A stretch of DNA of 64,000 nucleotides from Pirellulaceae bacterium (GTDB lineage Bacteria > Planctomycetota > Planctomycetia > Pirellulales > Pirellulaceae): contig JAGYIQ010000001.1 of NCBI GenBank assembly GCA_018402565.1, positions 62,001 to 126,000 on the forward strand. The letters are read 5' to 3'. Shown here in pieces: positions 1,951 through 59,412 of this stretch. The notes beneath the pieces were generated by a model. That model saw only the letters and a list, made by a program, of their open reading frames with translations, ran no database searches and had not been told where the DNA came from. Numbering within the stretch: the first letter of the stretch is position 1; every line of letters starts with the position of its first letter. Position numbers and translations under genes: made by a program.

Positions 1951-2095
1951 CTAGTGCTTTGTCACAGCCAAAACTTGGGGTGTGGCAAAGGGGTCAGGCG
2001 TCAATTGTGCGCAGCACCCGCTGGGCCGTTCCGGCAATTGACGCCTGACCCCTTTGCCACACCAATCCCAAAACTAAATTGTGACAAAGCACTAG
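1951..2095. repeat. 145-bp TA-flanked palindromic element, copy A (MITE-like)
   Basis: Near-perfect inverted repeat starting CTAGTGCTTTGTCACA and ending TGTGACAAAGCACTAG. An inner stem (GGCAAAGGGGTCAGGCG and its complement) encloses a 27-nt asymmetric loop. The outer arms are not fully symmetrical, which lets arm orientation be read; here arms and loop are both in the reference orientation. There is no coding capacity. Other copies are at 13640, 29301, 30410 and 38287, with a rearranged one at 59198. Confidence 0.9.
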
Positions 2096-2490
2096 GGCCA
2101 CCCCACCATCCGCGGCAGCCGAATACGGGGCGTCAGCCGGGGAAGAAACGGGCTGCCAACGATTCGACCAACCCCAAAATCGAGTGTTGACCAGGTATTC
2201 GTGCGAGTGCGAGCCGAACCGTGGCCGGATGAACTGGCTGGATCAATCGAACGAGCAGTCGTCCGCAAACCGTTACTGCCCCAGGACGAAGTCCGGTTAG
2301 AACTAATCGGTAATCAACTTACCGAATTGGCAATCCGCCGAAGTGCGTTAGCACCCGGTTTCCGCCGGAATTGGACGCTGACCGGTTCCGGCTAATTCGG
2401 TAACTTATTTGCGGACAAGTCCGTAACTTGCTGTGAGCTTGGAACATTTGCGGGGGGAAACTGTCCCGCGGGAGAGAGGAGACCTGAGTT
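2096..2490 (+). other. Non-coding leader upstream of hisD
   Basis: 395 bp with no convincing gene. It holds an imperfect long-range inverted repeat: AACTTACCGAATTGGC at 2316-2331 pairs with the segment at 2390-2406 (about 14 of 16 positions). Between them is a small perfect hairpin, GTGC-GTTA-GCAC, near 2343-2354. A purine-rich GGAGAGAGGAG at 2471-2481 is the likely ribosome binding site of hisD. The structure could be a leader regulator, but no leader peptide rich in histidine codons was seen. Confidence 0.5.
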
Positions 2491-3855
2491 TTGCCAGTCA
2501 AACTTTTTGATGGACGTGGGCAGCGCGCCGACGAGGCCTTGGGGCAGGTCGTGGCGTTGCAGCGAAAATTGGCGCCCCAGGGCGATACGATCTCCGAGGG
2601 GGCTCGAGAGCTCACGGTCCGAGTGTTCGGCGCTCCGCTGACCCCCAACCAGGTCGTGTCGCAGATCTGCGATCGGGTCCAACGCGAGGGACTGGCGGCG
2701 GTCTGCGATTTGACGCGGCAGCTGGATCGAGCAGAAATCGATGGCTCCAATTTCCGCGTGCCACTGGCTGAACTGGCAGATGCCCACCGCGGGGCGCCGC
2801 CCAGTTTCCTGGCGGCCATCCGCCAGGTGCGGCAGCAGATCGTCGAGTTCCAGACGGCCATTCGCCACTCGGCGGTCGAGGTCTTTCCGCGTCCGGGCGT
2901 GCACCTGACCCATCGCTACACGCCGCTGCCCCGCGTGGGCGTCTGTGTCCCGGGAGGCGCCGCGGCTTACCCGTCCAGCCTGTTGATGGCGGCCGTTCCG
3001 GCTCAGGTGGCCGGTGTGGAGGAGATCGCCGTGGTGGCGCCGCCGACGCCGTTCGGGTCCTACAACCCGCATCTGCTGGCGGCTTGCCACGAGTTGGGCA
3101 TTACCGAGGTCTATCGGGCGGGTGGGGCTCAGGCCGTGGCGGCCCTGGCCTTTGGGGTCGAGGGGTTGCGGCCGGTCGACAAGATCGTGGGCCCGGGCAG
3201 CTTGTATGTGGCGTTGGCCAAGAAACACGTCTACGGCCATGTCGACATCGACTCGATTGCTGGCCCCAGCGAGGTGTTGGTGATCGCCGACGAGTCCAGT
3301 CGCGCGGATTGGCTGGCTTTGGACTTAATCGCTCAGGCCGAACATTATCCCGGGGCCGCCATCTTGGTCTCCTGGAGCCCGACCTTGTTGGAGGCCGTGC
3401 GGCAAGAGCTGGAACATCACTGCGGGCGATTGGAGCGAGGCGCCCTGGCCGCCAAATGTTTGGAGGAGTTCGGTGCCTTTTTACTCGTGGATGACGCTGA
3501 TGCGGCCGTCCGGGTGGCGGATACTTTGGCCCCCGAGCACCTGCACATCCAGACCGAGGGGCAGGAGGCGTTGGCCCAGCGGATCCGTCATGCGGGTGCG
3601 ACCTTTGTCGGCGTCGACACACCCGTGGCGGTCGGTGACTATGTCGCCGGTCCCTCGCATGTGCTGCCGACGGGCGCGACGGCCCGTTGGGCTTCGGGCT
3701 TGTCCTGCAATCACTTTCTGCGGTCGCAGGCCATCATTCGTTACGATCGGGCAGCCTTGCGGGCCGAGGCCCCGGCACTGGCCGAAATCGCCAAGCTGGA
3801 AGGCTTGACCGGGCACTGGGAAAGTGTCGCCGCTCGTTTGAACTCGGAGAGTTGA
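2491..3855 (+). CDS. hisD: Histidinol dehydrogenase
   Basis: Zinc enzyme that oxidises L-histidinol to L-histidine in two NAD+-dependent steps, the last reactions of histidine synthesis. The 454-residue product is slightly longer than the usual ~430. It carries PRVGVCVPGGAAAYPSS, RAGGAQAVAALAFG, VDKIVGPGSLYVALAKK, IAGPSEVLVIAD, the zinc-binding Gln and His of LIAQAEHYPGA, APEHLHIQ, and the C-terminal SCNHFLR histidine. The start is a TTG at 2491; no ATG is available near the expected N-terminus, and a GGAGAGAGGAG sits about 10 nt upstream. It is followed 3 nt later by hisC and then by hisB, so the three genes form a his operon. Confidence 0.95.
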   Translation: MPVKLFDGRGQRADEALGQVVALQRKLAPQGDTISEGARELTVRVFGAPLTPNQVVSQICDRVQREGLAAVCDLTRQLDRAEIDGSNFRVPLAELADAHRGAPPSFLAAIRQVRQQIVEFQTAIRHSAVEVFPRPGVHLTHRYTPLPRVGVCVPGGAAAYPSSLLMAAVPAQVAGVEEIAVVAPPTPFGSYNPHLLAACHELGITEVYRAGGAQAVAALAFGVEGLRPVDKIVGPGSLYVALAKKHVYGHVDIDSIAGPSEVLVIADESSRADWLALDLIAQAEHYPGAAILVSWSPTLLEAVRQELEHHCGRLERGALAAKCLEEFGAFLLVDDADAAVRVADTLAPEHLHIQTEGQEALAQRIRHAGATFVGVDTPVAVGDYVAGPSHVLPTGATARWASGLSCNHFLRSQAIIRYDRAALRAEAPALAEIAKLEGLTGHWESVAARLNSES

Positions 3856-3858
3856 TCC

Positions 3859-4929
3859 ATGACCAAGAGCTTCCAATGGGCCGATTACGTGCGGCCCCAT
3901 CTCCGCGGTTTGCAAGGCTACGTGCCCGGTGAACAGCCCCAAGGTGGCAAGTTCATCAAGCTGAACACCAACGAAAACCCTTACGCGCCTTCGTCGTTGG
4001 CCCTGGCCGCGATCAAGGAAAGCGGCGAGCGGCTGCGGAAGTACCCGGACCCGACCGCGACGGCCTTTCGGCAAGTGGCCGGACAGGTACTGGGGGTATC
4101 CCCCGACCAGATCGTGTGCGGCAACGGCAGCGACGAAGTCCTGGCGATGGTGGTCCGATTGTGCTTGGGCCCAGAAGACCTGGCCGCCTGGGCGTCGCCC
4201 ACCTACTTGTTGTACGAAACACTGATTCGGTTGCAGGGTGCTCGCTGGCAGACGTTCCGCTACCGTCCCGATTGGTCGCTGCCCGAGGAGCTGTTCCGGG
4301 CAAACGCCAAGCTGACCTTGATCGCCAACCCCAACAGCCCCTCGGGGACTTGCTTTGACTTGCCGCAGTTGCGGCGGATCATTGAACGGATTCCGGGCCC
4401 GGTTTTGATCGACGAGGCCTACGCGGACTTCGCCGGTCAATCCGCCGCCAGCTTGGTGCGAGACTACCCCAACCTGATGGTCTCGCGCACCCTGAGCAAA
4501 TCGTACGCTTTGGCAGGATTGCGTTTCGGATACTTGGTGGCCCAGGAGGAATTGATCCGCCATTTGCATAATATCCGAGATTCTTACAACTGCGATGCCC
4601 TGTCGATCGCGGTGGCCACGGCGGCGATGAGTGACCAGGCCTGGCTGCGAGACAACCTGCGGCGGGTGATCGAGCAACGCCAAGTGTTGGAACGAGGCTT
4701 GGCGGAACTGGGCTTCTCGGTACAACCGTCACAGGCCAACTTCGTCTGGTGCCGTCACCCCGGTGGCCAGGCCCAAAGTATCTACATGGCACTTAAGTCG
4801 CGACAGATTCTAGTAAGATACATGAACTACGGGCCGGATGCGGAGGGCCTGCGTATCACGGTTGGGACGCCGACCCAAAACCAAGTTTTGCTGGAACAGT
4901 TGCACCAGATTGTAAAGTCGATCCCATGA
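3859..4929 (+). CDS. hisC: Histidinol-phosphate aminotransferase
   Basis: PLP-dependent class II aminotransferase that converts imidazole-acetol phosphate and glutamate to histidinol phosphate. It has 356 residues, the usual family size. Features seen are [12 protein letters not shown] near residue 35, GNGSDEVL near 88, ANPNSPSGT near 156, the PLP-contacting Asp and Tyr of IDEAYADF near 184, and the Schiff-base lysine in [15 protein letters not shown] at about residue 214. It lies 3 nt after hisD, and its last 4 nt overlap the start of hisB (ATGA), which suggests translational coupling. Confidence 0.95.
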
Positions 4930-5522
4930 GCCAATCCTTGCGCCGCGCTACCGTTCACCGTTCTACCGCCGAAACCCAGATCCAATTGGAATTGGACTTG
5001 GACGGCAGCGGCAAAGCCCAGATTGAAACGGGAGTTGGCTTCTTTGATCACATGTTGGAGCTGTTCACCAAACACGGCATGTTCGATCTGCAGGTGCAAG
5101 CCACAGGGGATTTGCACGTGGACCAACATCACACGGTCGAGGACGTCGGTATCTGCTTGGGGCAGGCCCTGGCCGAAGCCGTCGGCGACAAGCAGGGGCT
5201 GAATCGCTACGGCCACTTCACGCTGCCCATGGACGAGACACTGGTGACCACCGCCGTGGATTTGAGTGGGCGGTACGGCTTCGTCTTTAATGTCTTATTC
5301 CCACACGAAAAGATTGGGCAATTCGACTGTGAATTGATCGAGCATTTTTGGCAGAGTGTGGCCAATCGCTGCCAGTGTAATTTTCACGCCCTGTTGCATC
5401 ATGGCCAGAACGGCCACCATATCAGCGAGGCCGTGTTCAAGTCCGCGGCCCGCAGCTTCCGCCAAGCCACGACGCGCGATCCGCGACAGACGGGCATCCC
5501 CAGCACCAAGGGTGTGCTGTAG
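4926..5522 (+). CDS. hisB: Imidazoleglycerol-phosphate dehydratase
   Basis: Monofunctional HisB-type dehydratase that removes water from imidazole glycerol phosphate to give imidazole acetol phosphate, the substrate of the upstream aminotransferase. It has 198 residues, with [16 protein letters not shown] near residue 36, the metal-binding [17 protein letters not shown] near 66, the later [20 protein letters not shown] block, and the terminal IPSTKGVL. No phosphatase domain is attached, unlike the fused HisB of enterobacteria. The start overlaps the hisC stop by 4 nt. The genes for the remaining pathway steps are not in this window. Confidence 0.95.
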
Positions 5523-5656
5523 AAATCTCCGCTTCGCGGCCAAGATTCGCCTCACGCGAGCGAATGGCTTAGAATGGGCTGACGGTTCGCGCCCCAGTCA
5601 TTCGGGTGGGTGCGGCGAAGCGCCAGCCAACTCGATTCCCACAACAGGAAATAGTC

Positions 5657-6493
5657 ATGTCCCGCGTGCTGCCCAAGGCAGGCTCTGCTGCCGCCCGTTT
5701 TTCGTGTTCCGCTCGGCCGTTTTCCCCAGCCACGGGTTGGTCTGCCCGAGCCACGGGTTGGTATGCCCGAGCAACGGGTTGGTCTGCCCGAGCAACGGGT
5801 TGCCTGGGGCTGTTGTTACTGGTGACGGCCGCTGGCTGCGAGGGCGTGGGACCGGGCCTATTCGGGCCGGTCACGTCGGGCTCGGGCAACATCGTCACCG
5901 ATACACGCGGTCTGGAGCCCTTCCAGGAGGTCCGCGTGTCGGGCTCGGCGGAGGTGGTGCACGTGATGGCGGACGCGGCCAGTTGCGAGATCGAAGCGGA
6001 CGATAATTTGGTACCGTTGATCACGACGACCGTCGTGGACGGCGTGTTGAAAATCGAGTTCGAAGGTTCGATGCAGCCGACGCAGGGGATCAAGATTCGC
6101 TTGGCTGGTGCACCGCTGCGTCGCTTCTCGCTCGCTGGTTCAGGGAAATTCACCACCGAACACGTGGATGCCGAACAGTTTGAATTTTCGGTCGCTGGGG
6201 CTGGCGATGCAAACCTAGCCGGGCAGACTCAGCAATTGAAGCTCAGCGTTTCGGGATCCGGCAAGGTCTTGGCCCAACGACTGAAGGCCGATGCAGCCAC
6301 GATTCAGATTTCGGGGGCCGGCTCGGCTGACCTGCATGTGGAGTCGTCGCTCAAAGTCAATATTTCTGGAGCCGGCAGTGTGAAGTACTCGGGAAGCCCC
6401 CAAGTTTCGCAGTCGATTTCGGGCGCCGGCAGCGTGCAACCGGTACAACGTGACAATCCTCCCGCAGCAAAACAGGAAGGGACCAGCGAATGA
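5657..6493 (+). CDS. DUF2807 (head GIN domain) lipoprotein with a repeat-expanded signal peptide
   Basis: Predicted secreted lipoprotein of 278 residues. After the signal region it carries a DUF2807-type beta-solenoid: repeated SGSGxV/SGAGxAxL turns (SGSAEVVHV, AGSGKFTTE, AGAGDANLAG, SGSGKVLAQ, SGAGSADLHV, SGAGSVKYSG). Function is unknown; the fold is seen in surface proteins. The ATG at 5657 follows CAGGAAAT and was chosen over the earlier ATG at 5606. The n-region holds four near-copies of ATGWSAR encoded by 21-bp tandem repeats, followed by the hydrophobic stretch and a lipobox ending AAGC. Its stop overlaps the next start by 4 nt, so the downstream small membrane protein is probably co-translated. 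Confidence 0.8.
   Translation: MSRVLPKAGSAAARFSCSARPFSPATGWSARATGWYARATGWSARATGCLGLLLLVTAAGCEGVGPGLFGPVTSGSGNIVTDTRGLEPFQEVRVSGSAEVVHVMADAASCEIEADDNLVPLITTTVVDGVLKIEFEGSMQPTQGIKIRLAGAPLRRFSLAGSGKFTTEHVDAEQFEFSVAGAGDANLAGQTQQLKLSVSGSGKVLAQRLKADAATIQISGAGSADLHVESSLKVNISGAGSVKYSGSPQVSQSISGAGSVQPVQRDNPPAAKQEGTSE
5729..5806 (+). repeat. 21-bp in-frame tandem repeat in a signal peptide
   Basis: About 3.7 copies of GCCACGGGTTGGTCTGCCCG plus A, with single-base variants, encoding ATGWSAR each time. The unit is a multiple of three, so copy-number change keeps the frame. Confidence 0.85.
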
Positions 6494-6741
6494 CTGGCGG
6501 ACTAACGATTATTGGACTCGGAGCGTTCTTCTTAGGGACTATCGCCGCGATGCTGAGCCTGGCGGCCACAGTGTTCTGGATTTGGATGATTGCCGATTGC
6601 ATCATGCACGAACCATCGGTCGGCAACGACAAATTGGTCTGGATCATCCTGATGATCTGCCTGCCCGTGATCGGCTCGCTGTTGTACTTCTTCCTCAAGC
6701 GTCCCCAACGGCCGGTGACCGCCGAGATGCACTGGAAGTAG
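6490..6741 (+). CDS. Small PLDc_N-type membrane protein
   Basis: 83 residues with two predicted transmembrane helices (IIGLGAFFLGTIAAMLSLAA to about residue 35, and WIILMICLPVIGSLLYFFL near 50-68). Between them is WMIADCIMHEP and after them the conserved KRPQRP, the pattern of the phospholipase D nuclease N-terminal (PLDc_N) domain family. It has no catalytic HKD motif and is therefore not a phospholipase. The role is unknown; such proteins sit in the cytoplasmic membrane. It overlaps the DUF2807 lipoprotein gene by 4 nt and is probably translated with it. Confidence 0.8.
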   Translation: MTGGLTIIGLGAFFLGTIAAMLSLAATVFWIWMIADCIMHEPSVGNDKLVWIILMICLPVIGSLLYFFLKRPQRPVTAEMHWK

Positions 6742-6751
6742 GCGCGGCCCT

Positions 6752-7975
6752 TCAGGCCAATACGGTCTTGTAGGGTTGGCCGGGGATTTCTTGCACGTAA
6801 CGGGGCACGGCATGACCGGGCAAGCGGCGGCGCAGGCCTTCCAACAGCTGCAGGCCCTCGGCCTGAGTGACCTCGAAGTGGGCGGCGCCTTGGACACGAT
6901 CCAACTGATGCAGGTAGTAGGGCACGACACCGCAGTCGACCAAGCGGCGGCACAGCCCTTCGAGGGCCTCGACCGAGTCGTTGACACCGCGGAGCAAGAC
7001 GGCTTGGTTCAAGACCTGAAAACCCGCGGCTCGCAACCGCTCGATGGCAGCGGCCACCTCGTCGTCCAACTCCTGAGCGTGGTTGGCATGGATCACCATG
7101 ACCTTGGCCGCGAAGTCGGGGAACAGCTCGACAAAGTCCCGCGTCACTCGTTGCGGGATGACCACTGGCATGCGGCTATGAATTCGCAACCAGCGAACAT
7201 GCGGGATGGCTCGGAGCCCATTCAGTAAACGCTCCAGACTCACGTCGCTCAGCACCAGCGGGTCGCCGCCACTGAGGATGACTTCTTGGATGGTCGGGTC
7301 GGCCGCGATCGGCTCGAGCCACGGTTGCCATCGCGTCCGCTGCTGGGGCGCGGCAGGGTAGGGGAAGTGCCGCCGAAAACAATAGCGGCAATGCACGCCA
7401 CAGGCCCCCGTGGTAATCAACAAAGCGCGGCCTGAGTATTTTTGGATCCACTGTCGCGGCGCCGGGGTCTCGACCGCGAGCGGCAGATCCAACGCTGCCC
7501 CTGGCTCCAACCGCTCGGCCGCAGCCACCCCGGAAGCGAACTCGGCCAGAGGATCGCGGGAATAGCCCGGCGTGGCGACATCGGCCGTCTCTTCGGCCAC
7601 CGGGAGCACTTGGCGGAGGATCGGGTCCGCTGGATTGCCCGGCACGATCCGTTGCAGCAGCGCCGGCGGAACAAAACACGGGAACTCGATTTCGGCTGGC
7701 AATGCCGCCACCGAGTCACTCGTGGTGCCGACCGCAGGGACATGTCGGCCCAGACCCGCGGCCGGCTGGGCGTGCCCCGCCAGTCCCACGGCGGCCAGCA
7801 GTTGGCGGTGGTCGCGAATGGCGTGTTTCATCTGCCACGTCCATCCGCGCGAGTCATCCTCGGGCGTCCCCGGTTCCGCCGGTTGGGCGGCCCGTGGCAA
7901 CGACTGGGGCAGAGAGTGGTCCAGCGCCTGGTCCAGCGAATCGGTTTGTGAGTGGGGCAAAAAGGGTCGATTCAT
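6752..7975 (-). CDS. epmB: EF-P beta-lysylation protein (lysine 2,3-aminomutase family)
   Basis: Radical SAM enzyme with PLP that converts lysine to beta-lysine for modification of elongation factor P. The cluster motif is CGVHCRYCFRRHFPY around residue 190, followed by ILSGGDPL and the family block RIHSRMPVVIPQRV. The C-terminus has VPYYLHQLDRVQGAAHFEV and the typical ending QEIPGQPYKTVL. I place the start at the ATG at 7975 (407 residues); the frame also opens with a TTG at 8014 and neither site has a strong ribosome binding site. It is divergent from efp, whose product carries the target lysine. No epmA ligase gene is in the window. Confidence 0.88.
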   Translation of the reverse strand: MNRPFLPHSQTDSLDQALDHSLPQSLPRAAQPAEPGTPEDDSRGWTWQMKHAIRDHRQLLAAVGLAGHAQPAAGLGRHVPAVGTTSDSVAALPAEIEFPCFVPPALLQRIVPGNPADPILRQVLPVAEETADVATPGYSRDPLAEFASGVAAAERLEPGAALDLPLAVETPAPRQWIQKYSGRALLITTGACGVHCRYCFRRHFPYPAAPQQRTRWQPWLEPIAADPTIQEVILSGGDPLVLSDVSLERLLNGLRAIPHVRWLRIHSRMPVVIPQRVTRDFVELFPDFAAKVMVIHANHAQELDDEVAAAIERLRAAGFQVLNQAVLLRGVNDSVEALEGLCRRLVDCGVVPYYLHQLDRVQGAAHFEVTQAEGLQLLEGLRRRLPGHAVPRYVQEIPGQPYKTVLA

Positions 7976-8287
7976 GGGACGCGAAATGGGGTACGGGACC
8001 GAGCCACTCGACAAGCCCTACCAGGAGCTGTCGGGAGGGGGTATCATAGCAGCCTTTCGAGCCGCTCGTAATGGCCACTCGTCCGCCACGACCGCTCGCG
8101 ATTGACGGCATGAACCTCGCATTTGTTCGGGGGCACGTCGGTCGCGACGGGATTGTTTGGCTGCGGCGAGGCCGATGCGATTGGCTCGGGTTGGCTACAG
8201 GACGGGTGGTTGCAAGACGGGCCCGACCGAGATGGGCGGGCTGAACTCGTTGGCAAGACAAGCTGTTTGGGAAGGAATGATTGCATC
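7976..8287. other. Divergent intergenic region between epmB and efp
   Basis: 312 bp holding the promoters of both genes by position. A weak GGGAAGGA at 8268-8276 is the likely efp ribosome binding site, and the short direct repeat ACAGGACGGGTGGTTGCAAG-like near 8197-8220 has no clear role. Open frames through this stretch are extensions of efp and are not supported as coding. Confidence 0.45.
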
Positions 8288-8857
8288 GTGGTAGCGTACA
8301 AGACAAGTGAATTTCGCAAGGGTTTGAAGATCCAGATCGAAGGCCAGCCGTATTTGATGACCGAGATGAACTTCGTCAAGCCAGGCAAAGGCAATGCTTT
8401 GTACAAGTGCAAGATGAAGAACCTGATCACGGGCGCCTCTCTGTCGCGGACTTACAAAGGTGGCGATGAGTTGGAAGCGGCCGACGTCAATGAAATCGAC
8501 GTGACTTACCTGTACCGCCAGGGCGAGACGTTTGTATTCATGGACAGCTCGACCTTCGACCAGTACGAACTGACTGAGACCCAGGTCGACGATGCCTGGA
8601 AGTACCTCAAGGACGGCATGGCCTGTTCGATGGTGTTGTTCGACAACCGGCCGATCACGCTGTCTCCGCCCAACCACGTGGAATTGGAAGTGATCGAGTG
8701 CGCCGCCAGTGCCAAGGGCGATACGGCGACCAACGTCACCAAGATCGTCAAAGTGGAAACCGGTGCTGACATTTCCGCCCCGGCCTTCGTCAACCAGGGC
8801 GACATCATCAAGATCGACACGCGAACCGGCGAGTACACCGAGCGCGTGAAGAAGTAA
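8288..8857 (+). CDS. efp: Elongation factor P
   Basis: Translation factor that binds between the P and E sites and relieves stalling at polyproline stretches. The protein begins MVAYKTSEFRKGLKIQIEG, contains EMNFVKPGKGNALYKCKMKN, and ends with the three beta-barrel domain pattern; 189 residues, normal for the family. I set the start at the GTG at 8288, although the frame is open upstream to 8123. With this start the modifiable lysine of PGKGNALYK falls at residue 34, the same number as in Escherichia coli EF-P. The divergent neighbour epmB encodes the aminomutase that supplies beta-lysine for this residue, so lysylation of Lys34 is likely here. Confidence 0.93.
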   Translation: MVAYKTSEFRKGLKIQIEGQPYLMTEMNFVKPGKGNALYKCKMKNLITGASLSRTYKGGDELEAADVNEIDVTYLYRQGETFVFMDSSTFDQYELTETQVDDAWKYLKDGMACSMVLFDNRPITLSPPNHVELEVIECAASAKGDTATNVTKIVKVETGADISAPAFVNQGDIIKIDTRTGEYTERVKK

Positions 8858-8887
8858 CCCAGGCATTCAACCGGGCCGAAGCCAATC

Positions 8888-10291: not shown

Positions 10292-10296
10292 ACGAA

Positions 10297-13613: not shown

Positions 13614-13639
13614 AAGTCGCCAAACATGGTCCACCCAGC

Positions 13640-13784
13640 CTAATGCTTTGTCACAGCCAAAACTTGGCGTGTGGCAAAGGGGTCAGGCGTCAATTGTGCG
13701 CAGCACCCGCAGGGCCGTTCCGGCAATTGCCGCCTGCCCCTTTTACCACACCGATCCCAAAATCAAACGGTGACAAAGCACTAG
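13640..13784. repeat. 145-bp TA-flanked palindromic element, copy B
   Basis: Same element as at 1951. The left end is CTAATGCTTTGTCACA and the right end GTGACAAAGCACTAG. Arms and loop are in the reference orientation. The right inner arm has changes (GCCGCCTGCCCCTTTTACC) that break perfect pairing, so it is an older or decaying copy. Confidence 0.88.
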
Positions 13785-29300: not shown

Positions 29301-29444
29301 CTAGTGCTTTGTCACAGCCAGAACTTGGGGTGTGGCAAAGGGGTCAGGCGTCAACTGTGCGCAGCACCCGCAGGGCCGTTCCGGCAATTGACGCCTGACC
29401 CCTTTGCCACACCGATCCCAAAATTAAATTGTGACGAAGCCTAG
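29301..29444. repeat. 144-bp TA-flanked palindromic element, copy C
   Basis: Same element as at 1951, arms and loop in the reference orientation. It begins CTAGTGCTTTGTCACA and ends GTGACGAAGCCTAG, with one base lost near the right end. The terminal CTA at 29441-29443 is, on the minus strand, the stop codon TAG of the gene at 29441-30280. Confidence 0.9.
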
Positions 29445-30409: not shown

Positions 30410-30554
30410 CTAGTGCTTTGCCACAGCCAAAACTTGGCGTGTGGCAAAGGGGTCAGGCGTCAATTGCCGGAACGGCCCTGCGGGTGCTTCGCACAATTGA
30501 CGCCTAACCCCTTTGCCACTTCTGACCCAAAGTTAAATTGTGACAAAGCACTAG
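30410..30554. repeat. 145-bp TA-flanked palindromic element, copy D (loop inverted)
   Basis: The outer arms are in the reference orientation (CACAGCCAAAACTTGG on the left, AAATTGTGAC on the right). The central loop, however, reads CCGGAACGGCCCTGCGGG, the reverse complement of copies A, B and C. The left end CTAGTGCTTTGCCACA and right end GTGACAAAGCACTAG are otherwise the same. Confidence 0.9.
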
Positions 30555-38286: not shown

Positions 38287-38431
38287 CTAGTGTTTTGTCA
38301 CAACTTAACTTTGGGATCGACGTGGCAAAGGGGTCAGGCGTCAATTGTGCGAAGTACCCTCAGGGCCGTTCCGGCAATTGACGCCTGCCCCCTTTGCCAC
38401 ACACCAAGTTTTGGCTGTGCCAAAGCACTAG
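38287..38431. repeat. 145-bp TA-flanked palindromic element, copy E (arms inverted relative to loop)
   Basis: The outer arms are inverted compared with copies A to C (left CACAACTTAACTTTGGGAT, right CCAAGTTTTGGCTGTGCC). The loop reads in the forward direction, so arms and loop are in the opposite relative orientation, as in copy D. The terminal CTA at 38428-38430 is the stop codon TAG of the permease gene on the minus strand. Confidence 0.9.
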
Positions 38432-50465: not shown

Positions 50466-50479
50466 CCAGGAATCGCACC

Positions 50480-51847: not shown

Positions 51848-51895
51848 TCAGAGGACGTCCTAACATCGTCAAACGCCGACGAATTCGGCGGGATG

Positions 51896-51982
51896 AGCGG
51901 TCCACACAGGTGTTAGACAGCCCACAGGCGTTAGACGGTCCACAGGCCTGAGACGGTCCACGGGTGTTAGGCGGTCCACAGC
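51896..51982. repeat. 19-bp tandem repeat at the 3' end of the PhyH gene
   Basis: Four to five near-copies of GCGGTCCACAGGCGTTAGAC, with the last unit running into the 3' end of the minus-strand PhyH gene. The PhyH C-terminus (FPLLWTA) is encoded by repeat sequence. Confidence 0.75.
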
Positions 51983-52833
51983 AGGGGGAAGAATTGCCCA
52001 CCCAGAGGCTGTCCGGGCGGGATCGGCGGCACACCCGCCAGTAGCGAGTCGGCACTCTCGCTACACACGCCGTCTCGAACCGTATTGATCACGACCGCGC
52101 GACGTGGTCCCGCCGTGTGATTGGCGTACGAACCGTGAATCAGCAACGGATGATGGAACGAAGCGTACCCCCGCGGCAACGGAATCGCGACCGGAGCTGA
52201 AAAAATCGCCAACTGTTCTTCCGTCAACACCTGACGGATCGCTTCCATGTCACCCGCCAAACCAGTGATCGGCAGCAGATCCCACTGATGACTACCCGGG
52301 ATGTATTGCAGGCAGCCGTTGTCGACCGTCGATTCATCCAACCCAATCCAACAGGTCAGGTGGGCCATTGGCCGAGTCCGCGTCCAATAGGAGTAGTCTT
52401 GATGCCAGGCGACCACCCCGCCGTGATGAGCCGGCTTGCAAAACAGCTGATCGTGCCAGAACCGCACGTCCCCTTCGAGTAACTGCGAGGCGGGCACCAG
52501 CATCCGCGGATTAAAGAGACAATCGTGCAGGGCCGTCCGCAATCGCCACGCGCCCAACGCGTGAAACAGGACATGGGATGGATCTTCGCTCTCATTCGAG
52601 TTGTACTCGTACCACAGCGAACGACCCGCGTGGTCCGGCTGCACCAACTCGCTCAATTCGTCACAAATCGCATCGCACTGTTCGGGCGTGAAGACCTGAA
52701 TCCCGCTGACATAGCCCCACCGTCGGAAATGCTCCAACTGGTCGTCAGTCAGTCGCAACGGCTCCACATCGGCGACCCTCGAAAAGAGTTCGCCAATCGG
52801 TCGATGTGCCAGGGACAGATCATTCGCCAACAT
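51967..52833 (-). CDS. Phytanoyl-CoA dioxygenase (PhyH) family protein
   Basis: 288 residues. Non-heme iron, 2-oxoglutarate-dependent oxygenase fold. Iron ligands are the His and Asp of WHQDYSYW near residue 150 and the distal His of LLIHGSYANHTAGPRRAVV near 240, with the Arg that binds 2-oxoglutarate. Other parts: DQLEHFRRWGYVSGIQVF, GRSLWYEYNSNESEDPSHVL, and MAHLTCWIGLDESTVDNGCL with QYIPGSHQWDLLP. Such enzymes hydroxylate small molecules or halogenate substrates; the target is unknown. GAGGG lies 6 nt before the start. Confidence 0.9.
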   Translation of the reverse strand: MLANDLSLAHRPIGELFSRVADVEPLRLTDDQLEHFRRWGYVSGIQVFTPEQCDAICDELSELVQPDHAGRSLWYEYNSNESEDPSHVLFHALGAWRLRTALHDCLFNPRMLVPASQLLEGDVRFWHDQLFCKPAHHGGVVAWHQDYSYWTRTRPMAHLTCWIGLDESTVDNGCLQYIPGSHQWDLLPITGLAGDMEAIRQVLTEEQLAIFSAPVAIPLPRGYASFHHPLLIHGSYANHTAGPRRAVVINTVRDGVCSESADSLLAGVPPIPPGQPLGGQFFPLLWTA

Positions 52834-53017
52834 CAGGCACCCTCAGATTCTAGGGCAGAAAGTTACACGATTCTCGACATCGACATGCGCTCAAACCCAG
52901 CCGGGGCACAAGTCTGGACATAGACCGTCGCACCATGCGGCGCACACCTCTGGACAAGGCCGCTCCCGCACTCAATCACACCGCTGGGCCTGCAAGTAGG
53001 GTAGGCCCAGCACGCCC

Positions 53018-53040
53018 CCATCCGCCGCGTCGGCGGATGG
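53018..53040. other. Perfect 10-bp hairpin without T tract
   Basis: CCATCCGCCG, loop CGT, CGGCGGATGG. It lies between the convergent ends of no pair of genes but 37 nt after the thioredoxin stop on the minus strand. No U-rich tail was seen, so it may be a stability element or a rho-linked terminator. Confidence 0.5.
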
Positions 53041-53076
53041 AGTCGCTCGTGTGGGAAATCCGCCCCGTCGATTCAA

Positions 53077-53394
53077 CTACTTGTTTCGATCGATCATGCC
53101 CTGCAAGACCGCCTTGGGCTGGCCACCCAACACCTTGTCAACCACTTCGCCGTTCTTGAACAGCAGGATTGTTGGAATACTGGACACCTGGTACTTGATG
53201 GCCGAATCGCGGTTCTGATCCACGTCCAACTTGCCGATCTTGACCTGACCGTCATACTCCTTGGCCAATTCATCGATGACCGGGGCAATTTGTCGGCAGG
53301 GACCGCACCAAGTCGCCCAGAAGTCGACCATCACCAATTGATCGGCGTCCAAAACCTCAGATTGAAAATTGCTGTCGGTAAATTCGAGTGCCAT
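53077..53394 (-). CDS. trxA: Thioredoxin
   Basis: 105 residues, the standard size. The active site WCGPC is at about residue 30 in VDFWATWCGPCRQIAPVIDE, followed by LDVDQNRDSAIKYQVSSIPT with the cis-proline, and FKNGEVVDKVLG. It is a cytoplasmic disulfide reductase reduced by thioredoxin reductase. AAAGG precedes the start by about 8 nt. No reductase gene lies nearby. Confidence 0.97.
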   Translation of the reverse strand: MALEFTDSNFQSEVLDADQLVMVDFWATWCGPCRQIAPVIDELAKEYDGQVKIGKLDVDQNRDSAIKYQVSSIPTILLFKNGEVVDKVLGGQPKAVLQGMIDRNK

Positions 53395-53705
53395 GAGTCA
53401 GGCCTTTCTCCACGGGGGAACACGGTCAGCGGAAACACACGTACAGTCGGTAGACAAGAGCCCAGCCCAATGGCCCAGCCCGGTGACCGGGCCCGATGCC
53501 CCAGCCAGACGTACTGCCCGATGTACTACCCAGGGGCTCGACCCCGCCCGTGGGCCCTCGAATGGTAGGAGATAATTCCCCCATCGTCAATTGGGAGGAG
53601 CCTGATCGACCCCGCGTGTGACTTGGGCTAAACTGAGTGTCGGGGCGAAGCGGTTTCTGGTCCGGCAGGGCTGGGGTTCGCCACGAGACGATTGGGATTT
53701 TGCCA
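53395..53705. other. Divergent region between trxA and the NPCBM gene
   Basis: 311 bp with the promoters of both genes by position. No repeat or terminator of note; CAGCCCGGTGACCGGGCCCGATG near 53475 is a short GC hairpin. An upstream extension of the plus-strand frame to 53637 is not supported. Confidence 0.4.
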
Positions 53706-55037
53706 ATGACTTTTCTGGTCTGTTGCTGCCGCTGCTCCACCCGCCGTGAGTCGCGGTCGTGGCGTGTTTCAAGTTCACTGGACAGGTTCGCTGCTGTCCT
53801 GCTGGCCTGCATGCTGGTCTGTGCACTCGCAATGACGGACGTTTGTTTGCTGGCCCAGGAACCGGACATCGTCTCGGCAGTCAATCCGAACAAAAGCAGC
53901 GAGACGCGTGTCGTCATAACCAAAATCGACGGTCTGCAGGTCACGGTCACTGCCAACCGACTGGCCAACAACGGCGTTAGCCTGGAGGATGGCGAGACGC
54001 TCGGTTGGGACGAGGTTCGCGAACTTCAAACGGGCAATCGACTGTTAGGCGATGACCCCGATGTGATCACAGTTCGCTTGCGTGAACAGGGCGTCCTGTA
54101 CGCTCGCCAGGTCACCCTGTCAGACGGCGTCGTGGCACTGGCGACGGACCTGACCGACATCCAATACCCGCTGGTCGATGTCCGCTCCATCCGTTTCCCC
54201 GCGACCGAAGGTGAAACGGAATGGGCCACGTTGCTCCGCGAACCCAGCGGTGAAGTCGATCGGTTGCTGGTCACCACCAGCCGCGGTCCACGTGTTGTTG
54301 CTGGACTGCTTGAGTCGATCGACGCGGATGGCGTGCAATTGTACTTCGAAGATGCCTCTCGCCGCGTGGCTCGAGATAAGATCTTGGGTATTGTCCCCGC
54401 CGCGTTGACAGAAACAGCCTCGCCGAAGTTCCTGGTCCAAGTCGTTGATCGGTCCGTTTTGATCGCCGACTCGTTGGCCGTTGCCGACGGGAATTGGCAG
54501 ATCGGCTGGCAAGGACAAGTTCAACCGTTCCCGCACGAGACGATTGTGTCGGTCCGCGTTCGCTCCGATCGCGTGCTGTACGTCTCGGACCTGCCCCCAG
54601 TCCTGGACGAAGTCCAAACCATCGTGGCTCCGTCCGCCAAGAATCGGGTCGACACCAACGTAACTGGGCTGCCGATGGCACTGCGTCTGCCCCCATCGCC
54701 GAATGCGACCCCGGCGGATCGAGATGTACGGACTTTCTCCAAAGGTTGGGGCACTCGGTCCCGCAGTCGCTTGGTCTTCGACCTGCCGCCTGGCTTCAAC
54801 CGGTTGAACGGCTGGGTGGGGATCGACACCAGCACGCAGGGACGTGGAAATTGCCAAGCGATCGTGCTGTTGGACGATATCCAGGTATTTTCGCAAACGA
54901 TAACAGGCGATGCCACCGCCGTGCCGCTGGACGTCCCCGTCCAAGGCGGACGACGCCTGGAACTCCGCGTCGAAACCGGCGAGGAACTGGATCTGGCCGA
55001 TTGGGTCAATTGGGCCGATCTCCGCTTGCTGAAATGA
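53706..55037 (+). CDS. Exported protein with C-terminal NPCBM-like domain
   Basis: 443 residues from the ATG at 53706 (MTFLVCCCRCSTRRE). A signal segment (FAAVLLACMLVCALAMTDVC) is followed by about 280 residues rich in short beta-strands (ETRVVITKIDGLQVTVTANR, QGVLYARQVTLSDGVVALAT), with a repeat-like organisation. The C-terminus (about residues 300-443) matches the NPCBM/NEW2 domain layout: DVRTFSKGWGTRSRSRLVFD, NGWVGIDTSTQGRGNCQAIV and RRLELRVETGEELDLADWVN with WADLRLLK. NPCBM domains bind carbohydrate. Role: probable periplasmic or surface glycan-binding protein. Confidence 0.75.
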   Translation: MTFLVCCCRCSTRRESRSWRVSSSLDRFAAVLLACMLVCALAMTDVCLLAQEPDIVSAVNPNKSSETRVVITKIDGLQVTVTANRLANNGVSLEDGETLGWDEVRELQTGNRLLGDDPDVITVRLREQGVLYARQVTLSDGVVALATDLTDIQYPLVDVRSIRFPATEGETEWATLLREPSGEVDRLLVTTSRGPRVVAGLLESIDADGVQLYFEDASRRVARDKILGIVPAALTETASPKFLVQVVDRSVLIADSLAVADGNWQIGWQGQVQPFPHETIVSVRVRSDRVLYVSDLPPVLDEVQTIVAPSAKNRVDTNVTGLPMALRLPPSPNATPADRDVRTFSKGWGTRSRSRLVFDLPPGFNRLNGWVGIDTSTQGRGNCQAIVLLDDIQVFSQTITGDATAVPLDVPVQGGRRLELRVETGEELDLADWVNWADLRLLK

Positions 55038-55129
55038 AAGTACGACCGCACCGACCAATCGGCTGGTGACTGAGACATGGAACTGGCGCGAGTCGCCTCG
55101 CCTGACCCGCGAGACCAGGGCGTTGTAGG

Positions 55130-57364
55130 ATGACTAACCAAGGATCAAGTGACGGCATGTCCCAACAAGTCAAACGTGAGGTGCTGCAACACTTGGCCTT
55201 CGCCGCCTTTTTTCTGGCCGGCTTGTTTACAACCGACTTTTTCATGGGCGAGCCGGGCCAAAGTACGGGGACGCCGAACCTGCCGGCCACCGCCCGCGCC
55301 CAAGGCAAAGCGACAACCGTGTCGCCGCCAACCCTCCCCCTGCGGCGCACCGCCTGGCTGCCTTCGGTATCCCTCGATCCGACGAGGCAGCAGGCCGCAG
55401 ACGCCGAAGCTCAAGCGACGCAGGACGCACCGGTCTTGGACGCCGCCGCCAATCAATCGCACAGCGAACCAGCGAGCCGAGCCGACGACCCCTTGGTTGC
55501 GGCCCGACGCCTCGAACAGCAGCGGATCGAAGTGATCCGCCGCATCGCTCCCGCCGTTGTCGCCGTCTTTGGTCTCGAACGCGCCGGGGGTGGCTCCGGG
55601 GTTGTGATCCACCCCAGCGGCTTGGCGCTGACCAACCATCACGTGATCGCGGCAGCCGGCGCTACGGGCTGGGGCGGCTTGGCCGACGGCAAGCTGTACC
55701 GCTGGGAACTGATCGGCAATGACCCCGGCGGGGACTTGGCGCTGATCCGCCTGATACACGATCAACCCGGCGGCGAATTTCCCTGCGTGAAATTGGGTGA
55801 CTCCGATCAAGTGCAAGTCGGCGACTGGACCTTGGTTCTCGGCAACCCCTTCACCCTGGCTGAAGACTATACCCCCACAGTCACCTACGGCATTGTCAGC
55901 GGCGTGCAACGCTACCAACCCGGCATGAGCGATACGCTATTGGTGTACGGGAATTGCATCCAAGTCGATACGTCGATCAACCCCGGCAATTCAGGCGGCC
56001 CGCTGTTCAACGTGCAAGGCGAATTGATTGGGATCAACGGCCGCGCCAGCTTCGAGTTTCGCCAACGTGGGCGAGTCAACGTGGGCCTGGGCTATGCCAT
56101 CTCGGTCAACCAATGCCGCCATTTTTTGCCGGAACTGATGGCGACCAAACTCATCCAACACGGCACCCTCGACGCTCTCTTCGGCGATCGCGACGGCCGA
56201 GTCCTCTGTACGGCGATCTATGACGATGCCGACATCGCCGCCTTGGGACTGGAGTTGGGCGACGAACTGCTGGAGTTCGAAGGCCGACCCGTGACGACGG
56301 CCAACCAGTTTACCAATTGGATTTGCACGCTGCCTGCCGGATGGCCCGCCCAGCTGAAAATCCGCAAAGCGGATGGACGAACCTCGGAAATACGCATGCG
56401 GCTCATCGGCCTACCGTACCCCAAGATGGACAGCCCCCCTCCCGCCGCCGCGCCCCCTCGACCTCGCCCACAACAGCCGCCCGGGGATAAAGTCCCCGCG
56501 GCCCCCGCACCCGACCCGAATTCCTTGCAGGAACAGATTCAAGCCAGCCGCATGGCGCTGTTCAATTTCATGAGCGCCCCGCCCGGCCAAGCACAAAACA
56601 CGCAACAAAACGCCAACTCCGCGACGCTCCTGTGGCAGCGTTGGGCCACCAATATCGGCCTGACCACGCAGCAACCGCTCGTGGAATCCGTTCCGACCGC
56701 TTGGCAGATCACCGAACGTTGGGCCAACGCGGCGGGACAATCGACTCAATGGACAATCCACTGCGATACCGTCGCACGGACGATTGAGGTCAGTTACCCA
56801 GCCCCCCTCGAGAACGTGGCCACCACGGCTGCGGCTTGGGACTGGCAAGAGATCGACCCCTCCGGCCTGGCGGGAGTCCCCCTCCGCTATCGCGAGCAAC
56901 GCTGGTGGCGGCAAGCCCCCGCTGCCGCTGACACCGAAACTTGGGAAGAAGTCCCCGTCGCCCAACTGCTCCGCTCGCCGCTGGGCCTGCAACTCTGGTG
57001 GCTGACACACGGCCTACTGCTGCCCGATTCCAGTACCCCCGCCTTGAAACTGGATGGCGCCGACCGCATCGATCACCACGTCACCGCTCGCTTGGAAATG
57101 GCGAATCAAAACGCCGCCTGCTACCTCTGGCTGTCCCTCGACGATTGGACCGCCCCAGCCGATTCCCAACTATTGAAACTAAGCACCGATATCAATGGCC
57201 GAGCCCCCGCAGGCGCCGTCCGCATCGACCAGTGGGACAACAAATCGCCGCTCCCTTGGCCATCCCATCGACGCTTGGTCCGCGGTCTGTTCGAAGACCC
57301 AATCGCCGAAATTGCCACCGACTCGATCACCCCAGGCCCCGCCGCACAACCCCCGACACCCTGA
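55130..57364 (+). CDS. HtrA/DegP-like trypsin-type serine protease with PDZ domain
   Basis: 744 residues with a hydrophobic segment (HLAFAAFFLAGLFTTDFF) that anchors or exports it. The protease domain has the catalytic His in LTNHHVIA (about residue 169), the Asp in GGDLALIRL (about 203) and the Ser in GNSGGPLFN (about 288), the three residues of the S1C family. A PDZ domain follows (LGLELGDELLEFEGRPVTTA, about 370-430). After a Pro-rich linker, the last 250 residues have strands and no recognised fold. Start is uncertain: 55130 or the Met at 55157. It likely degrades or quality-checks exported proteins. Confidence 0.85.
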   Translation: MTNQGSSDGMSQQVKREVLQHLAFAAFFLAGLFTTDFFMGEPGQSTGTPNLPATARAQGKATTVSPPTLPLRRTAWLPSVSLDPTRQQAADAEAQATQDAPVLDAAANQSHSEPASRADDPLVAARRLEQQRIEVIRRIAPAVVAVFGLERAGGGSGVVIHPSGLALTNHHVIAAAGATGWGGLADGKLYRWELIGNDPGGDLALIRLIHDQPGGEFPCVKLGDSDQVQVGDWTLVLGNPFTLAEDYTPTVTYGIVSGVQRYQPGMSDTLLVYGNCIQVDTSINPGNSGGPLFNVQGELIGINGRASFEFRQRGRVNVGLGYAISVNQCRHFLPELMATKLIQHGTLDALFGDRDGRVLCTAIYDDADIAALGLELGDELLEFEGRPVTTANQFTNWICTLPAGWPAQLKIRKADGRTSEIRMRLIGLPYPKMDSPPPAAAPPRPRPQQPPGDKVPAAPAPDPNSLQEQIQASRMALFNFMSAPPGQAQNTQQNANSATLLWQRWATNIGLTTQQPLVESVPTAWQITERWANAAGQSTQWTIHCDTVARTIEVSYPAPLENVATTAAAWDWQEIDPSGLAGVPLRYREQRWWRQAPAAADTETWEEVPVAQLLRSPLGLQLWWLTHGLLLPDSSTPALKLDGADRIDHHVTARLEMANQNAACYLWLSLDDWTAPADSQLLKLSTDINGRAPAGAVRIDQWDNKSPLPWPSHRRLVRGLFEDPIAEIATDSITPGPAAQPPTP

Positions 57365-57529
57365 ATCGCGCTCATGGGAATCGGCAATCGTACGACGCTG
57401 CTCCAATCAGTGGCCAATCGTGTCGGCCTCAGCTAAAACAACCCCTCAACGGCTAACACGTCCCACCCCAGCGTTTCTCATTTCTGTGTCGTTTGGCCGC
57501 TATTCGCTTGGCCCTATTCGTCTGGCCCC

Positions 57530-57835
57530 GTCACGACCCAAACCAGCAGAGGGCTGCTGGTCTACAAACGTCCCTATTCCTCTGTACGTATTCCTCTGTC
57601 CCCATTCCCCTGTCCCCGTCTCGACTCAAACCAGCAGAGGGCTGCTGGTCTACAAACGTCCCCATTCCTCTGTACGTATTCCTCTGTCCCCATTCCTCTG
57701 TCCCCATTCCTCTGTCCCCATTCCTCTGTCCCCGTCTCGACTCAAACCAGCAGAGGGCTGCTGGTCTACAGACTGTCCCTATTCCTCTGTCCCCATTCCT
57801 CTGTCCTCTGCCCTCATTCCTCTGTCCCCCTCCAG
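57530..57835. repeat. CATTCCTCTGTCC minisatellite with CCAGCAG/CTGCTGG hairpins, second locus
   Basis: Three hairpin modules (CCAGCAGAGGGCTGCTGGTC plus TACA) at about 57544, 57629 and 57746, separated by arrays of CCCCATTCCTCTGT. Each module is preceded by CGACTCAAA or CGACCCAAA. The same modules occur at 21885-22172. The last part of the array lies within the 3' end of the minus-strand gene at 57779. Confidence 0.9.
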
Positions 57836-58171
57836 CCTACGACGCCGGGGCGGAAAGACCTTACGGTACACCCGCCAGCCGCCCCAGTACGCCAACAGCA
57901 ACGCGACGGCCAGCGCCCCGAGACGAGGCTGCACCAGGATCAGCAGTAGGGCGACCGCCGCCAAGAGCACAAATTTGGGGGGGAGGTATTTACCCCAACG
58001 AACCAAGTCGGGCCAAGCCAACCACAACGCACCCAGTGTCAACGTCAGTTTAAAGACGAAGCCCAATACCCGGTGGGTCCCGATCTGGTCCCAGGGGGTC
58101 GTGGCCAGCATCCCCAGCAACACGAGCAAGCAAGCGCCGCCCCCCCAGGCCAATCGGTTTCGCCGATCCAT
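57779..58171 (-). CDS. Small membrane protein with a repeat-encoded C-terminus
   Basis: 130 residues. Two to three transmembrane helices (NRLAWGGGACLLVLLGMLAT, HRVLGFVFKLTLTLGALWLA, FVLLAAVALLLILVQPRLGA and on to LAVALLLAYWGGW). The basic RVYRKVFPPRRRR ends the ordered part; the terminal RGMRAEDRGMGTEE is encoded by the minisatellite. GGAG lies 5 nt before the start. It begins 14 nt after the stop of the isomerase gene upstream, so it is probably in an operon with it. Function unknown. Confidence 0.6.
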   Translation of the reverse strand: MDRRNRLAWGGGACLLVLLGMLATTPWDQIGTHRVLGFVFKLTLTLGALWLAWPDLVRWGKYLPPKFVLLAAVALLLILVQPRLGALAVALLLAYWGGWRVYRKVFPPRRRRLEGDRGMRAEDRGMGTEE

Positions 58172-58185
58172 CCCAACTCCAATTG

Positions 58186-59037
58186 TTAGGTCGACGGCGC
58201 CAGGGAATCCTGGAGTCGCTTCAACAGCGTCACCGCGTGGCCGATCTCGGCTTTTTGACGCTCCGGTTCCTGAGGAATCTCGCGTTCGATCGTCAAGGAA
58301 CCCTGATAGCCAATCTGCTGCAACGTCTGCAGGTAACGTTCCATGCCCACGTCACCCGCCCCCAAAGGCACCTCTTGCCCCCAGGTCACACCGGGCTGGT
58401 CAGACCACTTGGCGTCTTTGCAGTGCACGCTCCGCACCAACGAGCCCAATTTCACCAGCGCTTCGATCGGGTCCCCTTGGCCATAGAGGATCATGTTCGC
58501 CGGATCGAAATTTACGAATAGATTATTGGTGCCGACATCCGCGATAAACTGCACCAAATTATCGGCCGTCTCTTGCCCCGTCTCCAAGTGCAGATTCTGG
58601 CCGTGAGCCGCCACGTAGCCGCACAAGTCCTGCGTCACTTCGACGACAGCTCGATACTCCAGCGACGAGGTGTCGTGTGGGACATACCCCAGATGCAGGG
58701 CCACCACAGAACAACCGATGTCCCGCGCGTAATCGGAGATACGCTTCATCTCCTCTAAGCGAGCCGCCCGAGGGCCTGGCGGGACCAATCCCACCGTCGC
58801 TGCCGTGGTCGGAATATCCGCGTAACTTTCTCCCTCGAAACCGCCAAACACCGCCGTGACCTCGACGCCTGTCTCCTGCAATTGCTGCAAGAGCCGGGCC
58901 ACATGTTCCGCCGAGCGGCTCTCCGGTTTTGGAGCATGGATTTGGATCGTGTCCAGCCCCAGCTCCTTGGCGACATGCAACGGAACGCCCAACCCCGCAT
59001 CGATACTCGTGAACACCCCGATCGGCCACCGACTCAT
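58186..59037 (-). CDS. Sugar phosphate isomerase/epimerase-like TIM-barrel protein
   Basis: 283 residues from the ATG at 59037 (MSRWPIGVFTSIDAGLGVPL), preceded by GGGAGAGA about 7 nt upstream. It follows the xylose isomerase-like/AP-endonuclease-2 barrel pattern: DTIQIHAPKPESRSAEHVAR, AVFGGFEGESYADIPTTAAT, CSVVALHLGYVPHDTSSLEY, LHLETGQETADNLVQFIADV, NLFVNFDPANMILYGQGDPI, RSVHCKDAKWSDQPGVTWGQ and GYQGSLTIEREIPQEPERQK, with metal-binding Glu, Asp, His and Glu. Such proteins act on sugars or their derivatives; the substrate is unknown. A frame upstream to 59157 is open but has no supporting similarity. Confidence 0.86.
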   Translation of the reverse strand: MSRWPIGVFTSIDAGLGVPLHVAKELGLDTIQIHAPKPESRSAEHVARLLQQLQETGVEVTAVFGGFEGESYADIPTTAATVGLVPPGPRAARLEEMKRISDYARDIGCSVVALHLGYVPHDTSSLEYRAVVEVTQDLCGYVAAHGQNLHLETGQETADNLVQFIADVGTNNLFVNFDPANMILYGQGDPIEALVKLGSLVRSVHCKDAKWSDQPGVTWGQEVPLGAGDVGMERYLQTLQQIGYQGSLTIEREIPQEPERQKAEIGHAVTLLKRLQDSLAPST

Positions 59038-59197
59038 GCATTCTCTCCCAAAACTCGCAAAACACCGCCGCCGACGCCACATCCAGCTTGCACCGCCCGC
59101 CGCGACCCCGACATCCCCCAAAATCGCCCCCAAGTTTAACCTCCTGCCGCCCCTCACGCGACCCTCCCCCCAGCTGCCCTCGCCAGCCGTCTTATCG

Positions 59198-59412
59198 CTA
59201 GAGGGGTCAGCGTGTGGTAAAGGGGTCAGGGTGTGGTAAAGGGGTCAGGAGTCAATTGTGCGAAGCACCCGAAGGGCCGTTCCGGCAATTGACGCCTGAC
59301 CCCTTTACCACACAGGAGTCAATTGTGCGAAGCACCCGCAGGGCCGTTCCGGCAATTGACGCCTGACCCCTTTACCACATCAACCCCAACATGGAATGGT
59401 GACACAGCACTC
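59198..59412. repeat. Rearranged palindromic element with duplicated core (copy F)
   Basis: The core (GTCAATTGTGCGAAGCACCC to CAATTGACGCCTGACCCCTTT) is present twice in tandem, preceded by two or three partial GTGTGGTAAAGGGGTCAGG segments. The left end CTAGAGGGG lacks the outer arm. The right outer arm is diverged (GTGACACAGCACTCG). The loops are in the reference orientation. Confidence 0.8.

Follow-up and report, generated by a model that had tools for sequence, protein, structure and literature searches.

The 64,000-nucleotide stretch of Pirellulaceae bacterium DNA analyzed here (the window; C1:62001-126000 of G000, a 7.18-Mb draft assembly in 223 contigs, 93.5% complete) contains six copies of a non-coding palindromic element of about 145 bp, and it raises the question of what this element is made of and what has moved it. 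An initial sequence-only reading interpreted it as a miniature inverted-repeat transposable element (MITE) of the IS630/Tc1 type, moved in trans. The ends and the target site do match those of IS630, and that interpretation is incomplete, because the inner half of the element is a different mobile element. Only the outer 31 to 35 bp on either side are IS630 ends, and the inner 79 bp (the core) are another palindromic element. Our explanation, which we regard as likely, is that each copy consists of IS630 ends around a separate 79-bp palindrome; the unit probably spread in trans by means of an IS630 transposase acting at CTAG, and its middle was probably placed earlier by a Y1 (HUH) tyrosine transposase.

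Copies in the window and in the genome

Re-reading of the window finds six copies at the places originally given, five of them 144 to 145 bp long and one rearranged. Their layout, and the two layers of the first copy, are as follows:

1951..2095, + strand: copy 1, a complete two-layer element of 145 bp with CTAG on either side
1951..1981, + strand: left end of the outer layer of copy 1, CTAG plus the IS630-type terminal repeat (inner boundary set by core copies of other genomes)
1982..2060, + strand: inner layer of copy 1, a 79-bp palindrome with 25-bp arms, a 29-nt tip, and GGGGTCAG in the arms
2061..2095, + strand: right end of the outer layer of copy 1, the IS630-type terminal repeat plus CTAG
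13640..13784, + strand: copy 2, complete, with CTAA rather than CTAG as the left flank
29301..29444, + strand: copy 3, complete, with a single-base loss near the right end
30410..30554, + strand: copy 4, complete, with the inner palindrome inverted relative to the outer ends
38287..38431, - strand: copy 5, complete, with the outer ends reversed and the inner palindrome inverted relative to those ends
~59198..59413, + strand: copy 6, rearranged, with no left IS630 end, a doubled inner palindrome, and CTCG as the right flank

The inner stem, first put at ~28 bp, measures about 27 to 28 bp. The copies, ends, and stem thus stand as first described; what had been overlooked is that the element has two layers, that its copies are more numerous, and that the inner palindrome is inverted at 30410 and 38287. 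With no more than one mismatch, a 13-base end pattern has 9 matches in the window, all within the six copies, whereas with up to three mismatches it has 24, barely above chance (mean of 16.2 in shuffled sequence, with 3 of 100 shuffles as high). The window had been said to contain no transposase; none of the listed transposase matches falls in it, although not all of its open reading frames were scanned.

A genome-wide search for the outer arm, as proposed in the sequence-only reading, reveals well over a hundred copies in the assembly: a 16-base end with up to two mismatches has 154 + 145 matches, compared to 1 + 0 for the reversed control. A profile hidden Markov model census of the entire contig C1 (1.17 Mb), 780.5 kb of C112, and 19 other stretches comprises 85 rows (38 on C1, 19 on C112, and 28 elsewhere), with one copy, C158:174106, counted twice because it is included in both L009 and L053. 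Both ends are present in 55 of these rows, one end in 26, and neither in 4. The length is 145 bp in 37 of the 55 both-ended rows, and there is no transposase gene inside, as in IS630-type MITEs. Extrapolation from the density on C1 and C112 would give a genome total of ~200 places, including fragments. In pairwise comparison, the 42 full-length rows have a median identity of 93%; there are five identical pairs, including the double-counted copy paired with itself and one pair seen twice. Two solo copies of 50 bp (L045 and L052), considered as a possible ancestral form, appear to be products of deletion, with breakpoints at TGTGGCAAAG (core) and TGTGACAAAG (end). The element has no match in Rfam at the gathering score and none in the plasmid collection.

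The orientation of the two layers is not fixed. Of 41 scorable copies (43 are in the length range), 4 have a core that is turned around with respect to the ends, two of these four being in the window, and the core appears duplicated in several copies (lengths of 164 to 209 bp, as well as the window copy at 59198). Such inverted and duplicated cores suggest that the core either stayed active or is prone to rearrangement.

IS630 ends and the CTAG target

Of the 296 genomes of the order, 62, including G000, contain the end CTAGTGCTTTGTCA, and the reversed pattern has at most one match per genome. G137 (67 matches), G199 (54), and G222 (26) are among the genomes with this end. Elsewhere, the same ends surround other palindromes, mostly of 109, 110, 134 to 137, or 154 bp. 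Members of the 109- to 110-bp class (L206, L210, L213, L214, L218, L220, L307, L309, L311, L312, and L322), examined by eye, combine the same IS630-type ends with different inner arms that are complementary within each copy.

The lead to IS630 came from the ends alone. Among 30 loci fetched by the end pattern only, three (L198, L219, and L222) have a gene start adjoining the end, and a piece of the L198 protein, used as a query, has a match in 13 of 26 genomes tested and none in G000. Complete elements were then retrieved with an IS630 protein query. They are 1,226 to 1,241 bp long, and both ends are readable in 11 of them (4 in G008, 5 of 6 in G220, and 2 in G133). G008 and G220 are single-contig genomes of one genus, from the same family as the host. 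The flanks are CTAG on both sides in 10 of the 11 and CTAC on both sides in L240. The longer frame of L229 matches NF033545 (IS630) at 145 bits, with a cutoff of 100, and also DDE_3. In their shorter frame, both L229 and L240 have a match to HTH_32 and one to the N-terminal part of NF033545, the latter below the cutoff for the whole protein. The two frames overlap at AAAAAAAC, which would permit a -1 frameshift.

By eye, the ends of the window element agree with those of the complete elements over about 30 bp, and both sets have a block resembling TTGGGG or TTCGGG near bases 25 to 31. The element thus shares its terminal inverted repeats with complete IS630 copies in other genomes of the order, and the IS630/Tc1-type MITE interpretation gains support from the fact that full-length elements with these ends carry IS630 transposase frames. 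A full-length transposon with these ends, which the sequence-only reading had suggested looking for, is found in three related genomes but not in the host's own assembly. Further, the left end of the element is similar to the one that precedes the IS630 gene in L225, and its right end to the one that follows that gene, so that the element looks like an IS630 copy in which the gene has been replaced by the core.

CTAG is present on both sides in 37 of the 55 both-ended census rows. Tandem copies share a single CTAG, both here (L050, C112:255427, and C191:11585/11638) and in other genomes (L211, L215, L216, and L310). CTAG is about fivefold rarer than expected in C1, with 797 occurrences versus about 4,250 predicted from base composition (3.6% of TA sites), even though it is the landing site of this element family.

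Empty sites were sought by joining the flanks of both-ended copies with one tetranucleotide removed and comparing the resulting 98 queries (95 of them distinct) with all fetched DNA. A sibling crossing the junction was found for eight joined queries, two of which merely represent tandem neighbors. The IS630 copy L229 has an empty sibling that is identical at 204 of 204 positions and contains one CTAG; that of L238 also contains one CTAG, at 98.5% identity. For the element C112:663337, the siblings agree at 30 of 32 positions around the junction, with GCACCAGCCCCTAGAATCAC uninterrupted and one CTAG. The best siblings have TTAG for L019 and CTAA or CTGA for L046, for which a more distant sibling has CTAG. 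For C1:1014097, the best sibling has CTAG and lies in a short tandem repeat adjoining the element; this is the weakest of the six cases. The clearest cases thus show a single CTAG before insertion and two afterward. The sequence-only reading had staked its IS630-type proposal on empty sites with a single TA, and the closest paralogous empty siblings do hold one CTAG, hence one TA. Duplications of 2 bp (TA) and 4 bp (CTAG) read alike here, because the target itself is CTAG.

Some insertions lie in repeats. At least two of the elements, C112:663337 and C147:50741, are inserted in a repeat of at least 130 bp with many copies (GCAAGTCGGGCTAACC ... GTGAACGGTTAC), which is also found, among other places, at C1:16954-17084, C1:1106531-1106661, and C112:104460-104590, with three copies about 215 bp apart on C1. 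L229 and L238, both from G008, lie in copies of one repeat that, by eye, is a putative group II intron maturase.

In the congeners, the syntenic stretches contain no counterpart of the elements at 29301 and 30410 (G001 and G002) or of the element at 38287 (G002). The flanks there are ~70 to 77% identical where aligned, too diverged to define an empty site. These three elements either entered after the split or were lost in the congeners. The flank of the IS630 copy L249 likewise has no counterpart within its genus.

The inner palindrome and Y1 transposases

A search with a window copy against 39 genomes, including G000, finds pieces of it elsewhere. Positions ~27 to 110 are matched in G011, G018, and G027, whereas positions 1 to 40 or less are matched in G016, G018, and G026. 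The inner piece is without IS630 ends in G011 and G018; two pieces in G027 are cut by contig ends. The tip pattern is found in 14 of the 296 genomes of the order, including G000, and the reversed pattern is found in none. There are 72 matches in G000 itself, 60 (32 + 28) in G267, 16 (7 + 9) in G252, and 11 in G236. Of the core copies outside G000, 24 are fully readable, and none of these has an IS630 end closer than 45 bp, as opposed to 5 of 7 rows (5 places) from G000 in the same analysis, which dropped 5 rows at contig ends and in which L024, L025, and L032 are not full fits to the pattern. Cores without ends are also found in G000, at C112:216030 and C112:295518.

This distribution bears on an alternative in which the whole 145-bp unit is a single palindrome of the repetitive extragenic palindrome (REP)/REPIN type, moved only by a Y1 (HUH) enzyme, with CTAG as the recognition tetranucleotide and the likeness to IS630 secondary. 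The unit does form one long palindrome, G000 has 14 Y1 matches but no IS630, CTAG could be a site of single-strand cleavage, and tandem copies do have one CTAG in common. This alternative is nevertheless improbable, given that the same ends occur on complete IS630 elements and on quite different inner palindromes elsewhere, that the empty siblings imply a duplication, and that the core is without such ends in all 24 copies of other genomes. The core starts with GTGGCAAAG or GTGGTAAAG and, unlike GTAG REPs, has no GTAG at the foot of the hairpin.

The 26 core copies (24 from other genomes and 2 from G000) align without gaps. Their 29-nt tip, GCCGGAACGGCCCNNNGGGTGCTTCGCAC, is almost invariant, in part owing to selection, as the search pattern fixes most of the tip and leaves the arms free. 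The arms covary, with a score of 0.368, compared to 0.105 for shuffled and at most 0.064 for slid arms. Changes on both sides affect 16 of 25 arm pairs and 120 cells, versus 40 in shuffles (with relatedness ignored) and 5 to 17 when the arms are slid. The 79-bp palindrome is also found on seven contigs that are classed as viral in IMG/VR (L375 to L381), four of which contain the same stretch.

Covarying arms and a strong stem are also what would be expected of a regulatory or structural hairpin, such as a transcript end or an mRNA stabilizer, that was copied by the IS630 layer and spread otherwise elsewhere. With crude gene calls, 32 of the 38 C1 copies are intergenic, in contrast to 584 of 5,000 random places (12%), and 10 of the 38 lie in gaps between converging genes, compared to 83 of all 466 gaps, a weak excess. 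The stem is not followed by a T run, so a terminator role is not favored. Together with the high copy number in G267 and G252, where the copies read have no IS630 end, and the presence of similar arms next to Y1 genes, this makes the hairpin explanation unlikely, although it is the least unlikely of the alternatives to the two-layer explanation.

The connection to Y1 transposases comes from the arms. In the window copies, the core arms with GGGGTCAG fit the motif GGGGWSAS, which the accessible part of one report (PMC3733652) assigns to the terminal inverted repeats (TIRs) of TIRYT genes, that is, genes for tyrosine transposases that are flanked by TIRs and not by REPs. One of the Y1 matches in G000, the Y1_Tnp gene L087, is flanked by inverted copies of AAAGGGGTCAGGCCTCTTTG, with AAAGGGGTCAGG on both sides followed by CCTC where the core has CGTC. 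Nearly full-length relatives of L087 number 11 in 12 genomes (L087 included). The upstream DNA is readable for 10 of these genes, and in 9 of the 10, all except L361, it contains an arm of the kind AAAGGGGTCAGG, GGAAAAGGGG, or AAAGGTGTCAGG; several of the genes have an inverted counterpart of the arm downstream as well.

The palindrome also accommodates other insertions. The core of L034 holds a 1,586-bp IS4-family element (NF033592; L034:2125-3710). This element is bounded by 18-bp terminal repeats of its own, and its insertion into the core is flanked by a duplication of 9 bp (8 of 9 identical). The 1,740-bp unit with CTAG ends at L034, a candidate for the autonomous transposon, was rejected for this reason: its transposase is of the IS4 family and belongs to a nested insertion with its own terminal repeats. 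The second IS4-family copy in G000, L044, is truncated where its contig begins, and its right end adjoins the same core sequence. In G013, the related elements are located in AAAGGGGTCAGG repeats; two of them have a 9/9 duplication of GGTCAGGCG, and the flanks of another are mismatched. For the G001 copy, GGACACACA is duplicated (9/9), and the duplication of the G002 copy is 8/9. Altogether, IS4-family ends CAATACTGTTCGGC or CACAACTGTTCGGC are found within GGGGTCAGG- or GGGGACACAC-like sequence in four genomes, mostly with 9-bp duplications (L034:2125-3710, L044, L055, L056, L057, L069, and L076).

Origin of the composite element and comparison with known systems

In the proposed course of events, a Y1 transposase of the TIRYT kind would have mobilized the middle in the form of a folded single strand, and an IS630 deletion derivative would have acquired the middle and then multiplied. 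An IS630 transposase would have cut and pasted the 145-bp unit in trans, and the IS630 partner would since have been lost or be absent from the draft.

Several observations weigh against this explanation. The assembly of G000 has no IS630 transposase, judging from searches with an N-terminal IS630 query and the DDE_3 profile (0 matches). We therefore infer the mover of the outer layer from relatives. The presence of a partner is not taken as defining, since partners may disappear or escape assembly; here it may be missing from the draft, or the family may be orphaned. The only DDE_3 match in G002, L324, which has an internal stop, is without such ends. As to the target, most other members of the repeat around C112:663337 have no CTAG at the site, and copies with TTAG/TTAG and CTAC/CTAC flanks fit a 4-bp duplication better than TA; pointing the opposite way, several copies with CTAG/CTAA or CTAG/CTAC flanks fit the 2-bp TA better. 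The commonest change, CGAG instead of CTAG (reading outward to inward) at 12 of 136 ends, is accounted for by neither length. It falls on the base of the TA that is away from the element, and the CTAG in the sibling of the CGAG-bearing C1:1014097 suggests that the change came after insertion. As to the core, the three-hairpin form of the tip is not the minimum-energy fold in either RNA or DNA folding; the tip shows no variation at any of its 10 drawable pairs, which is neutral as evidence on its fold. The arms of L087 diverge from the core after GGGGTCAGG. Finally, tblastn finds no L087-like Y1 gene in 46 core loci (178,587 bases), with positive controls found, and the tip is beside none of 20 Y1 loci, so that we infer, rather than observe, that a Y1 enzyme moved the inner palindrome.

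The matching TTAG and CTAC pairs would also suit an outer-layer mover of the IS5 or IS701 kind that duplicates a 4-bp YTAR. This possibility appears very remote, in that the complete elements with these ends are IS630, albeit retrieved with an IS630 query and with IS5 and IS701 genes not searched for such ends, and in that the lead to IS630 came from the ends only. IS630 reportedly prefers the TA within CTAG, going by the title of a 1991 paper by Tenzen and Ohtsubo as cited in PMC2170065. In favor of the IS5/IS701 possibility, MITEPsy1, listed as "IS5?", is described in the available portion of one report as duplicating CTAG or YTAA (PMC3189936).

More tentatively, the inner palindrome could belong to an undescribed class of mobile DNA that folds as a single strand, with a near-fixed 29-nt tip drawable as three mini-hairpins and with arms rewritten in each lineage in step with its own Y1 transposase. 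Its nesting in an IS630 MITE would add a DDE mover, and its use as an IS4-family landing site would add a third, bringing together three transposition chemistries; we consider this broader proposal possible but doubtful.

IS630-related MITEs, such as RUP, and Y1-related palindromes are already known. A literature search that covered few subscription journals found no description of a fusion between an IS630 MITE and a Y1 palindrome or of the tip, and searches for the end sequence and for the tip returned nothing relevant. The element offers a naturally replicated case in which two unrelated classes of miniature mobile elements were fused and the fused unit then multiplied. The pairing of a MITE that has no visible partner with intact-looking IS630 copies in related genomes makes trans-mobilization testable, and a palindrome family with a near-invariant tip and covarying arms could reveal joint change of Y1 transposases and their repeats.

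Among the known systems, ISRm22 is an IS4-family element, nine copies of which sit in REPs, according to the portion of the report available (PMC1525189). The similarity lies in an IS4-family element residing in palindromes, with both G000 copies at the same place in the core and the G013 copies in GGTCAGGCG; the repeat and the insertion sequence are different ones. The closest counterpart of the outer layer is RUP of Streptococcus pneumoniae, a 107-bp element with ends similar to those of IS630-Spn1 (PMC3049150). On the available text, RUP is likewise non-coding, falls in the range of about 100 to 150 bp, shares its ends with an IS630-family element, and is proposed to move in trans. RUP is referred to there as a simple repeat, whereas the middle of the present element is a second, independently distributed palindrome and the IS630 partner is not in the assembly. 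For the IS630 family itself (NF033545, PF13358), whose biochemical model is ISY100 as far as the accessible part of that work goes (PMC2170065), the likeness includes the ends, the TA inside a CTAG target, the DDE transposase on complete copies, and the two frames overlapping at AAAAAAAC; the 145-bp element differs in having no gene. The inner layer resembles the TIRtrons and TIRYT genes, as portrayed in the part of the source at hand (PMC3733652), in the GGGGWSAS motif (here GGGGTCAG), in its inverted pairs, and in the Y1 gene located between inverted motif copies. It differs from them in the near-invariant 29-nt tip with freely covarying arms, which that part of the source does not mention, and in that the palindrome here rides inside an IS630 MITE.

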